DNA from: Acholeplasmatales bacterium
GTDB taxonomy: Bacteria > Bacillota_I > Bacilli_A > Acholeplasmatales > Anaeroplasmataceae
Direction of reading: 5' to 3'
Assembly: GCA_024698125.1 (NCBI GenBank)
Contig: JAILRQ010000102.1
Coordinates: forward strand, 1 to 34,185
DNA length: 34,185 bases
In this document: piece by piece, positions 17,953-30,099 of the stretch
Numbering within the stretch: position 1 is the first letter of the stretch
Layout of the letters: every line of letters begins with the position of its first letter
Notes under the pieces: model-generated
What the model was told of the DNA's origin: nothing
Databases searched by the model: none
Seen by the model: the letters and a program-made list of their open reading frames with translations, nothing else
Made by a program: the position numbers and the translations under genes

Positions 17953-17980
17953 AAGTCCACCGAAGTGGACTTATAATTAA
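17953..17980 (-). terminator. terminator of cysK
   Basis: An 8-bp stem AAGTCCAC / GTGGACTT closed by a TTCG tetraloop, then TTTCTTT on the minus strand. Confidence 0.88.
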
Positions 17981-18909
17981 TTATTAAATAATGGAGTTGA
18001 AAGATATCTATCACCATTATCTGGTAATAATACTACAATTCTCTTTCCCTTATTCTCAGGACGCTTTGCAAGCTCACGTGCTGCGTATAATGCAGCTCCT
18101 GATGAAATACCAATAAATACTCCATCACTCTTAACAACCTCACTACCTACTGCGAATGCTTCCTCATTAGGTACGGCAATAATCTCATCATAGATTGTTG
18201 TGTCCAAAGTCTTTGGTACAAATCCTGCACCAATCCCTTGAATCTTATGAGGACCTGCAACTCCTGTTGAAAGTACTGCTGAAGTCTTAGGCTCTACAGC
18301 AACAATCTTTATATTAGGATTCTTCTCCTTTAAATACTTACCAACACCAGAGATAGTACCTCCTGTACCTACTCCTGCCACGAAAATATCTACATTACCA
18401 TCAGTATCCTCCCAAATTTCAGGACCTGTTGCTAGATAATGTGCCTTAGGATTAGATGGATTAACAAATTGTCCTGCAATAACTGAATTAGGAATTTCCT
18501 TTTGAAGCTCCTCAGCCTTAGCTATAGCTCCCTTCATTCCCTTTGCACCTTCAGTTAATACAAGCTCTGCTCCGTAAGCCTTAATAAGGTTACGACGCTC
18601 TAATGACATTGTATCTGGTAATGTAATTATTAGTCTATATCCTCTTGCGGCAGCAAGAGCTGCAAGACCAATACCTGTATTACCGCTTGTTGGCTCAATA
18701 ATAGTAGCACCCTTCTTTAAAACTCCTGCCTCCTCATAATCAAGGATGATTTGCTTTGCAATTCTATCCTTTGCAGAACCTGCAGGATTTAATCCCTCTA
18801 GCTTAGCTACAATTGTAGCCTCAAGCTTATTATTCTTATTAAAATTAACTAACTCTACTAATGGTGTATGACCTACTAGGTCAGCCACACTCTTATATAT
18901 TTTACTCAT
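17977..18909 (-). CDS. cysK: cysteine synthase (O-acetylserine sulfhydrylase)
   Basis: A PLP enzyme making cysteine from O-acetylserine and sulfide. K47 in [10 protein letters not shown] is the PLP lysine, [11 protein letters not shown] binds the substrate/[16 protein letters not shown] holds the phosphate, and the length of 310 is standard. The C-terminus (YLSTPLFNN) ends in the style of CysK. It follows the Rrf2 gene by 32 bases on the same strand, so the two form an operon read from the promoter at 19413-19441 and are probably under the repressor's own control. Confidence 0.95.
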
Positions 18910-18941: not shown

Positions 18942-19376
18942 TTATATTGAATAGTCATTACCTATTCTTGCTCTTTCCTTTACTGCAAGGTCCTCTAAGG
19001 TTACTCCGTTTACATAATCATTTACTACCTTGTAGAAGCCTTGCCAGAAATCAATAGTTGCACAGCCAAGTGCTCTTGGACATGTATTAACCTCAGTCTG
19101 CAGGCATGATACAGGAGCAAGTGTTCCTTCTGCGGCTACAAGTATCTCTCCCACCTTGTAATCCTTAGGATCCTTTACAAGCCTATATCCTCCATTGTTT
19201 CCTCTAACGCTTATAAGAAGCTGGCTTCTTGTAAGCAGGGATACAACCTGCTCTAAATATTTAATTGAAATATTCTGCCTTGCTGATATATCCTTTAAGG
19301 ATACAACATTACCATTTGAATAGGCAGCTATATCAATCATTAATCTTAATGCATATCTTCCTTTTGTTGAAATCAT
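18942..19376 (-). CDS. Rrf2-family repressor with three IscR-like cysteines
   Basis: A winged-helix Rrf2 regulator of about 144 residues. The N-terminus MISTKGRYALRLMIDIA and the recognition region NISIKYLEQVVSLL are typical. Three cysteines, C91, C99 and C105 (SCLQTEVNTCPRALGC), sit where IscR binds its iron-sulfur cluster (C92, C98, C104), whereas CymR of Bacillus lacks this trio. Its position before cysK and next to a sulfhydrylase gene argues for control of cysteine supply. The ATG at 19376 is preferred (GGGGTG six bases upstream); a GTG at 19385 would add three residues. Confidence 0.87.
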   Translation of the reverse strand: MISTKGRYALRLMIDIAAYSNGNVVSLKDISARQNISIKYLEQVVSLLTRSQLLISVRGNNGGYRLVKDPKDYKVGEILVAAEGTLAPVSCLQTEVNTCPRALGCATIDFWQGFYKVVNDYVNGVTLEDLAVKERARIGNDYSI

Positions 19377-19388
19377 CAAATACACCCC

Positions 19389-19441
19389 ATTCCTAGTGCT
19401 TTACTAGTATTTATTGTATCACTTGGGGTAATATATTTCAA
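19389..19441 (-). promoter_or_regulatory. rrf2-cysK promoter and putative Rrf2 operator
   Basis: TTGAAA (19441-19436), 17 bp, TACAAT (19418-19413). Immediately downstream, CTAGTAAAGCACTAGGAAT (19407-19389) contains the inverted repeat CTAGT/ACTAG. It matches a sequence at the same position in the metY promoter at 14 of 19 bases, which suggests one shared regulator, most simply the Rrf2 protein itself. Confidence 0.65.
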
Positions 19442-19445
19442 CTAA

Positions 19446-20732
19446 CTAGATAGCTTTAAACGCATTCTCTAGATCATCAATGATATCATCAATATGCTCT
19501 GTACCAATTGATAATCTTACTGTATTCTTGTAGATACCTACAGCCTCAAGCTCCTCATCGTTAAGCTCTGAGTGAGTTGTTGATGCAGGATGTATTACAA
19601 GAGACTTTACATCTGCTACATTAGCAAGCAATGAGAATAGCTTTAGGTTATCAATAAACTTTAATGTATCCTCTTCACTTCCATTTACCTCAAATGTAAA
19701 TATAGAACCTCCTCCATTAGGGAAGTACTTCTTATATAGAGCTTGTTGTGCCTTATCCTTAGATACTGATGGATGATGTACCTTTAATACCTTTGGATTA
19801 GACTCTAAATACTTAACTACCTTTAAGGCATTCTCTACGTGACGCTCTACACGAAGAGATAATGTCTCAAGACCCTGTAATGCGATAAACGCATTTACTG
19901 GAGAAATTGCAGCTCCTGTATCACGTAAAAGAATTGCTCTTATATATGTTACGAAAGCCGCAGGTCCAACTGCATCATAGAATGATACACCATGGTATGA
20001 TGGATTTGGATTTACAAGATGTGGAAACTTTCCACTCTTTCTCCAATCAAACTTTCCACCCTCAATAATTACTCCTCCAAGTCCTGTTCCATGACCTGTA
20101 ATAAACTTAGTTGCAGAATGTACTACTATATCTGCACCATACTCTAATGGTCTTACAAGATATGGAGTTGCGAATGTTGAATCAACTACAAGTGGAATGT
20201 TGTGCTTATGCGCAATCTTTGCAATTTCTTCGATATCTACAACATCACTATTAGGATTTCCTAGTGTTTCAATAAACACAGCCTTAGTATTATCCTTAAT
20301 AGCCTTATCAATCTCCTTAGGATCTGGCTTCACAAATGTTGTAGTTACTCCATAATTTGGAAGTGTGTACTCTAAAAGGTTAATTGAACCTCCATAAATA
20401 TTATTTGCAGCTACAATATGATCTCCTGCAAAGGCTAAGGCCTCTAGGGCATATGTAATAGCTGCAGCACCAGATGCTACCGCAAGTGCTGCACTACCAC
20501 CCTCAAGGGCTGCTATTCTTTCCTCGAATACTCCTTGAGTTGGATTTGTTAATCTACCATAAATATTTCCTGCGTCTCTTAAACCAAAACGATCTGAGGC
20601 ATGCTTTGAATTATTAAATACATATGATGATGTTAAATAAATAGGAACTGCTCTTGCTCCTGTCGCAGGATCAGGATTCTCCTGACCTACATGTAATTGT
20701 AATGTTTCGAATTTGTACTTCTTATTGCTCAT
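19446..20732 (-). CDS. metY: O-acetylhomoserine sulfhydrylase (homocysteine/cysteine synthase)
   Basis: A PLP enzyme of the Cys/Met-metabolism family, 428 residues, joining O-acetylhomoserine with sulfide (or methanethiol) to give homocysteine (or methionine). K209 in VVHSATKFITGHG is the PLP lysine. Other signatures are YGRLTNPTQGVFEERIAALEGG, VVDSTFATPYL and the C-terminal VADVKSLVIHPASTTH. The length and the GHGTGLGG segment favour the sulfhydrylase over cystathionine synthases. It has its own promoter and a long leader (about 190 bases) with a small ORF. Confidence 0.93.
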   Translation of the reverse strand: MSNKKYKFETLQLHVGQENPDPATGARAVPIYLTSSYVFNNSKHASDRFGLRDAGNIYGRLTNPTQGVFEERIAALEGGSAALAVASGAAAITYALEALAFAGDHIVAANNIYGGSINLLEYTLPNYGVTTTFVKPDPKEIDKAIKDNTKAVFIETLGNPNSDVVDIEEIAKIAHKHNIPLVVDSTFATPYLVRPLEYGADIVVHSATKFITGHGTGLGGVIIEGGKFDWRKSGKFPHLVNPNPSYHGVSFYDAVGPAAFVTYIRAILLRDTGAAISPVNAFIALQGLETLSLRVERHVENALKVVKYLESNPKVLKVHHPSVSKDKAQQALYKKYFPNGGGSIFTFEVNGSEEDTLKFIDNLKLFSLLANVADVKSLVIHPASTTHSELNDEELEAVGIYKNTVRLSIGTEHIDDIIDDLENAFKAI

Positions 20733-20789
20733 TTATAATATCTCCTTATTAAACAAATATTTTTCTTTGAAGGATTTAATTATAATCAA

Positions 20790-20861
20790 TTAATTAATTT
20801 TAGAGTCTCCTTCTTGACTATTTCTTAACACTTGCATATCGCAATCACATTCACTAGTCAT
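20790..20861 (-). CDS. putative 23-aa leader peptide of metY, CDCDM motif
   Basis: A small ORF in the metY leader: ATG at 20861, AGGTGA six bases upstream, TAA at 20790, ending 57 bases before metY. It begins MTSECDCDMQVLRNS, so two Cys codons and a Met codon fall within five residues, fitting a ribosome that senses cysteine or methionine charging. I see no clear terminator-antiterminator pair after it, so the mechanism is open. It could also be a conserved small protein. The ribosome binding site and the position behind a strong promoter are the evidence. Confidence 0.5.
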   Translation of the reverse strand: MTSECDCDMQVLRNSQEGDSKIN

Positions 20862-20892
20862 AAAAATCACCTACTTTTTTCTTAATCTTACA

Positions 20893-20954
20893 ATTCCTAC
20901 CTGTTTAGTAGGGATTACATTTTTAATAATACACCATACGCAATACGGTGTCAA
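20893..20954 (-). promoter_or_regulatory. metY promoter and operator
   Basis: TTGACA (20954-20949), 17 bp, TATTAT (20931-20926). The spacer holds an imperfect palindrome (ACACCGTA / TATGGTGT). Just past the start point lies the 8-bp inverted repeat ATTCCTAC / GTAGGGAT (20893-20900, 20908-20915), related to the site at the rrf2 promoter. Confidence 0.7.
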
Positions 20955-29894: not shown

Positions 29895-30080
29895 TAAAAT
29901 AAAAAAGTCCCTTGTATATAACAAAGGACGATTATATCGTGGTGCCACCTTTTTTGCATCTCTTACCTTATACGTAAGGTCTAACGTATACCTCAGAAGT
30001 AGATTCACAAAAGGTCTTGCTATCTATTCTCACCAGCCATAGACTCTCTTAAAGCTTTCCTTAAGCTACTATTCTTCATC
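29895..30080 (-). promoter_or_regulatory. T-box leader of serS, serine specifier
   Basis: On the minus strand the T-box sequence AAGGTGGCACCACG (29951-29938) is followed by a terminator, stem GTCCTTTG / CAAGGGAC (29929-29907) and TTTTTT. Upstream, a Stem I-like region includes AGAGAGTCTATGGCTGGTGA and GAATCTAC, in which TCT (30003-30001) sits where the specifier codon is expected and reads serine. Uncharged tRNA-Ser would pair here and at the T-box and allow read-through into serS. Confidence 0.9.
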
Positions 30081-30099
30081 ATCAGTATTATTTTATTAA

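Follow-up and report, generated by a model that had tools for sequence, protein, structure and literature searches.

How is metY, the gene for O-acetylhomoserine aminocarboxypropyltransferase/cysteine synthase, controlled in this member of the Acholeplasmatales, and does the short ORF that lies ahead of it play a part? The window, i.e., the whole stretch of 34,185 nucleotides that we analysed (contig JAILRQ010000102.1), encodes downstream of this ORF, in that order, metY, an Rrf2-family regulator, cysK, and a flavodiiron-like protein. The preliminary description had reported a short ORF preceded at a suitable distance by AGGTGA, with Cys and Met codons packed early in it. Both features are present on the minus strand (20861-20790), and the stop codon of the ORF (20792-20790) falls shortly before the metY start at 20732. 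The elements of the locus are the following:

20926..20954, minus strand: sigma-70 type promoter TTGACA-17-TATTAT, with an equal layout in relatives
20892..20916, minus strand: operator palindrome of the Rrf2/CymR type, AATCCCTACTAAACAGGTAGGAATT, which overlaps the probable transcription start
20867..20872, minus strand: Shine-Dalgarno AGGTGA of the leader ORF, 5 nt ahead of its ATG
20790..20861, minus strand: leader ORF MTSECDCDMQVLRNSQEGDSKIN, from ATG to TAA, with Cys at codons 5 and 7 and Met at codon 9
20741..20747, minus strand: Shine-Dalgarno AAGGAGA of metY, 35% unpaired in the pseudoknot-free ensemble
19446..20732, minus strand: metY (TIGR01326, 608.8 bits against a cut-off of 495.1)
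19389..19409, minus strand: second Rrf2-type box TACTAGTAAAGCACTAGGAAT, ahead of the rrf2 gene
18942..19385, minus strand: Rrf2-family regulator, IscR/CymR-like (above the TIGR00738 cut-off, below both equivalog cut-offs)
17977..18909, minus strand: cysK, cysteine synthase A (above the TIGR01139 cut-off)

Taken singly, the ORF of the window is weak, suggestive evidence; when its 69 nt are shuffled with dinucleotides preserved, an in-frame CxC or CC motif appears in 6.5% of the shuffles. The operator motif is found again upstream of metY in relatives and, in the window operon, upstream of rrf2, and a repressor of the Rrf2/CymR type probably adds transcriptional control of metY through it. The metY leaders gave no Rfam match (riboswitch, T-box, or S-box) at gathering thresholds. 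The sole Rfam match of the window is an unrelated T-box leader (RF00230, 102.9 bits) at 29921-30091 of the minus strand.

The distribution of metY in the family is patchy: a gene of this type is found in 20 of its 55 genomes, with products ~70-79% identical to the MetY of Lachnospiraceae and Ruminococcus. The enzyme is poor in sulphur even though its leader is rich in it, twelve proteins of the family having one Cys in total and essentially no Met past the start codon. Two genomes of a second family in the order also encode this type of metY. All 22 metY leaders contain a promoter, the box, a Shine-Dalgarno, a short Cys ORF, and metY in that order, and the leader ORF, of 14-35 codons, is the first Shine-Dalgarno-led ORF past the Rrf2/CymR-type operator. 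Cys accounts for 10.5% of the residues of these ORFs, versus 1.5% in the proteins of the window. The 22 leaders have 62 Cys and 59 Met, versus 27.9 ± 4.4 and 25.3 ± 4.4 in shuffles; each residue is thus ~8 s.d. over composition-matched shuffles, and the same holds for the Clostridia set analysed below. Our first ORF listings contained Cys ORFs only, and we therefore repeated the choice blind to Cys. Taking the first Shine-Dalgarno-led ORF after the box returned the same ORF in 18 of the 22 leaders, a slightly longer in-frame ORF in three, and an ORF in another frame in one. The relatives are mostly metagenome-assembled genomes that are mutually non-independent, and all the evidence given here comes from sequence comparison.

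The peptide itself evolves rapidly. The genus is represented by two species, that of the window and one congener, whose leader peptide MTSECNCDMQRFKYSQEGDFKNI occupies the same place ahead of metY (peptide E = 1.6e-5 against the window). The Cys block and the block forming the pseudoknot described below are preserved between the two, and the intervening codons drift. In the whole set, the peptide sequence is kept only in small groups (the ECDCDMQ, DCCCDM, MCSCDCC, and RCMG..ARMC..SHNVMCD types), and some leaders have a single Cys (e.g., L020). Weak peptide matches inside a long frame (G027) and without leader context (G030) were discarded. Conservation in relatives had been set beforehand as the test on which the idea could fail. 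Codon content and position are conserved, whereas the amino acid sequence is not outside the genus, and the idea withstands the test: two related families and part of the Clostridia have Cys/Met-rich ORFs in their metY leaders. The preliminary interpretation is partly supported.

In the Clostridia, 23 of the 75 metY upstream regions contain a Shine-Dalgarno-led ORF with at least two Cys codons or a CGA motif (see below), a few of which look incidental. The nineteen leader ORFs used in the counts, which were chosen with Cys in view and thus give a Cys figure biased upward, contain 52 Cys (20.9 ± 4.1 in shuffles) and 45 Met (15.8 ± 3.5). Most of them terminate in RMC, RMCC, or similar. Since the RMC-type leader is common to the family and to the Clostridia, metY and its leader may have been transferred together. 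Twelve Clostridia genomes have a box of the CCTATTGACNNNNTAGGAA form that overlaps the -35 element. Behind this box, the Cys ORF is found before metY in most cases but not before cysK, sufC, or rrf2 genes, which indicates that the ORF goes with metY and rules out the operator as its cause.

Box-led leaders are also found before other genes. ORFs rich in Met and Cys (e.g., MKKIINFVSNMNMMMCSCMCMKANTDFSLRPNPIDNL), each with an intrinsic terminator behind it, occur before a lipoprotein/transporter-type gene in L156 (1500-1760) and on the reverse strand of L165, and one such ORF, again followed by an intrinsic terminator, occurs before a GNAT gene in L142 (1500-1700). These three leaders are candidate classical cysteine attenuators in Bacillota. 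The label 'transporter-type lipoprotein' reflects sequence features recognised by eye, a Pfam search of the partial transporter proteins having returned no family. In L172 (from the genome of L089), near 1560-1800, a box-led leader MKKSMSCLYLNKDSMCCCLCRMRNLGQVN and a terminator precede an SGNH-hydrolase-like gene; in L163, a similar hydrolase gene follows the box without a leader.

The 3' end of the leader ORF and the spacer that follows can form an H-type pseudoknot, a feature that goes beyond the preliminary description. Its stem 1 ends shortly before the stop codon and its stem 2 closes near or beyond it. In the window, the arms are the following:

20804..20819, minus strand: stem 1, AGTC (20819-20816) with GACT (20807-20804); p = 0.005 under the fixed topology; arms identical in the congener
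20813-20808, minus strand: 5' arm of stem 2, GAAGGA, in the loop of stem 1
20769..20774, minus strand: 3' arm of stem 2, TCCTTC, pairing with GAAGGA or alternatively, through TCCTT, with AAGGA of the metY Shine-Dalgarno

Under this topology, the pseudoknot is significant (p < 0.05) in 14 of the 22 leaders, versus 1.1 expected, and strong in eleven. The topology was fixed after a first search had been seen, and the less biased figure is that of the looser search, where the Fisher combined p is ~1e-11, uncorrected for relatedness. Compensatory changes are observed in about half of the leaders, including that of the window. The helices AGTC/GACT and GAAGGA/TCCTTC are replaced in relatives by AGTCATGA/TTATGACT with TGTCAT/ATGACA, AGAGCCGTA/TGCGGCTCT with TGTCAT/ATGACA, TGTCAT/GTGACA with TATCATGT/ACATGATA, or TTGTAGC/GCTACAA with TATGGGA/TCCCATA. 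In an unsupervised alignment of six leaders, picked because they fold, pairing is complete (100%) and four pairs are changed on both sides, which none of 500 shuffles matches. Where the hairpin-borne Cys codon has been lost, as in L007, there are Cys codons further upstream instead, with the pseudoknot retained. The pseudoknot is not universal: about eight of the 22 family leaders lack a convincing one, as most Clostridia leaders lack a significant one. In some leaders of type B, a Cys codon lies within the pseudoknot, so that stalling there would block its formation.

How could the position of a ribosome on this ORF be read out? A classical terminator attenuator is ruled out, as the window leader has no intrinsic terminator between the ORF and metY. 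Rho-dependent attenuation is ruled out as well: neither the genome of the window nor 20 relatives have a match over the TIGR00767 cut-off for Rho, and we took the weak matches to be other ATPases. The readout should then be the translation of metY or the decay of its mRNA. In the two congeners, TCCTT pairs with AAGGA of the metY Shine-Dalgarno, which is 35-37% unpaired, versus 56-98% in the other leaders. The pseudoknot and this anti-Shine-Dalgarno hairpin share TCCTTC and thus compete, in this genus only, with stem 2 the more stable of the two (-6.7 and -7.6 versus -4.3 and -4.4 kcal/mol). When a stalled ribosome is modelled, the unpaired fraction of the metY Shine-Dalgarno rises from 0.33 to 0.67 in the congener and, a small change, from 0.39 to 0.46 in the window. 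Sequestration of the Shine-Dalgarno is ruled out as the general mechanism, because this site is open in most relatives. In L036, the leader ORF extends into metY, which would suggest coupling instead.

On balance, we favour the view that translating ribosomes use the leader ORF to sense sulphur amino acids for metY, with a fair chance of being wrong; we infer from the sequences the translation of the ORF, the stalling, the direction of the response, and the anti-Shine-Dalgarno switch. With abundant Cys-tRNA, and perhaps Met-tRNA, ribosomes would pass codons 5-9, unwind the structured 3' end of the ORF, and terminate at 20792-20790. In that last position, a ribosome would cover the 5' arm of stem 2, and the TCCTTC freed after run-through would pair with the metY Shine-Dalgarno, MetY being then poorly made. 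When Cys-tRNA is short, the ribosome would wait at codons 5-7, ~20 nt or more ahead of the structured region, and leave stem 2 free. The pseudoknot would then form and capture TCCTTC, and the metY start would be open. The anti-Shine-Dalgarno switch would operate in the genus of the window only. A response in which starvation turns the gene on would fit metY. More broadly, a Cys/Met leader precedes metY in many gut Bacillota, where ribosomes short of cysteine would probably switch the gene on. By its way of working, the putative element is a ribosome-mediated leader-peptide regulator, not a classical terminator or Rho attenuator.

The same sensor could have another readout, to which we give perhaps a third of the credence of the first. 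In Bacillus, stalled ribosomes stabilise mRNA, and a ribosome stalled at Cys codons near the 5' end could shield the metY-rrf2-cysK mRNA from 5'-to-3' decay, with the pseudoknot as a second barrier. This would suit the leaders that have an open metY Shine-Dalgarno and no terminator, and in most leaders of the family the Cys codons are indeed close to the presumed 5' end. However, it leaves unexplained the placement of the pseudoknot at the stop codon and, in the genus of the window, the mimicry of the metY Shine-Dalgarno by stem 2, and the Cys codons of Clostridia leaders lie deeper in the ORF (codons 15-20).

A codon regularity, also absent from the preliminary description, characterises the relatives. 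Where Arg immediately precedes Cys or Met, its codon is CGA in 41 of 45 cases (19/22 in the family, 22/23 in Clostridia), in a count that covers the metY upstream regions L045-L116, as well as L005-L024 and L151. Among the Arg codons of metY genes, CGA represents 0/157 and 2/196 (2/353 together), and 1/123 among those of the window genes. The hexamer CGAATG is in the frame of the ORF in 23 of 24 cases, at codon 7 in the family and mostly at codons 15-17 in Clostridia, and four leaders finish with CGA-ATG-stop. On the sense strand, 15 of the 75 Clostridia upstream regions contain the motif CGAATGTG; none has it on the antisense strand. The leader of the window has no in-frame CGA. This codon was slowly read in an assay with the his leader (PMC4046918), four consecutive CGA codons were no obstacle to translation in B. 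subtilis (PMC10454642), and s2C32 in tRNA-Arg(ICG) prevents CGA binding (PMC5372741). A TtcA-like protein, scoring below the equivalog cut-off, is encoded in 46 of the 55 family genomes, whereas the B. subtilis control gave no such match; C32 is present in tRNA-Arg(ACG) of the window's genome. The role of CGA may be that of a slowly read codon, of a sensor of thiolation, or of a signal in the RNA. It is conceivable, if unlikely, that the leaders of relatives sense sulphur twice, the CGA before Cys/Met reading the thiolation of tRNA-Arg(ICG), and that the window leader is a variant. The s2C32 made by TtcA would then block the reading of CGA, so that ribosomes would pause at CGA when sulphur is plentiful, and would pass it and pause at Cys when sulphur is poor, which would displace them by one or two codons with respect to the RNA structure. 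If true, such leader peptides would incorporate a sensor of tRNA modification.

CGAATG and a AGTCATAATGTCATGTGTGACT block are conserved at the nucleotide level, which, together with the compensatory changes of the pseudoknot, might instead point to a structured RNA element, i.e., a riboswitch or a protein-binding site, in which the frame is open by chance and the ORF incidental. We consider this improbable: a Shine-Dalgarno and a start codon stand at a fixed place, CGAATG keeps to the ORF frame, Cys and Met are enriched beyond composition, the helix sequences are interchangeable with no invariant unpaired pocket common to all leaders, and Rfam returned no match at gathering thresholds. The CxC and CC motifs of several leaders would suit a small Cys-rich peptide that binds metals or thiols and acts in trans, but this is very unlikely given lengths of 14-42, no common fold or sequence, no matching Pfam or NCBIfam family, the single Cys of some leaders, and a strict placement in cis before metY. 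Finally, a functionless chance ORF in an AT-rich leader, compatible with the shuffles of the window ORF alone, is contradicted by the 22-leader and 19-leader tests and by conservation in the congener, and is the least credible of all.

Cysteine leader peptides of Actinobacteria have reportedly been studied experimentally, by Canestrari et al. in 2020. Their existence, mentioned in the preliminary description, agrees with their report before the cys operons of Mycobacterium and Propionibacterium acnes and before cbs of Bifidobacterium longum (PMC1262725). Like the metY leaders, these have a short ORF with Cys codons ahead of sulphur genes and no conserved terminator (PMC1262725). Those leaders have Cys runs close to the stop codon, with Rho as the proposed readout (PMC1262725), whereas the metY leaders have interspersed Cys and Met codons and then a pseudoknot, in genomes without Rho. 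The LEU element of actinobacterial leuA also combines a leader ORF and a pseudoknot with a link to the downstream Shine-Dalgarno and no ligand pocket (PMC1262725). There, the run of Leu codons itself pairs with the leuA Shine-Dalgarno (PMC1262725); in the metY leader, the Cys codons are ahead of the structure and the competitor for the Shine-Dalgarno is the 3' arm of stem 2, TCCTTC, past the stop codon and in this genus only. The uORFC-8-2 motif before cysS of Rhodobacterales similarly associates a Cys-codon uORF and an RNA structure controlling a Cys-related gene, but it ends in an intrinsic terminator, has tandem Cys at codons 14-15, and is alphaproteobacterial (PMC8632094). In Bacilli, amino acid leader peptides precede hisZ/hisS*; these differ in being specific for histidine, terminator-based, and associated with tRNA synthetase-type genes (PMC2965389).

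The literature searched, which excluded most subscription journals, contains no Cys leader before metY in Bacillota and no system with this combination of features, in agreement with the preliminary description, which knew of no Cys leader peptide in this phylum. In Firmicutes, CymR/Rrf2 controls cysteine genes transcriptionally, at the DNA level. The locus resembles such control by its operator-like palindrome and by the rrf2 gene inside the operon, and differs from it by the leader ORF, which would be an extra RNA-level layer. The best reading of the locus is a sulphur-amino-acid leader peptide that, within the literature searched, would be new in Bacillota.

Bacillota are thought to sense amino acids chiefly by T-boxes and riboswitches. 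The leaders described here form a natural series with interchangeable structures that, if the sensor is real, would be suited to testing how ribosome position is read out, and the CGA regularity offers a specific way to test whether sulphur status, tRNA thiolation, and codon reading are linked. If true, our interpretation would add an RNA-level layer on top of Rrf2/CymR control and would extend leader-peptide control to the sulphur metabolism of Bacillota, with a pseudoknot replacing the terminator in genomes that lack Rho.
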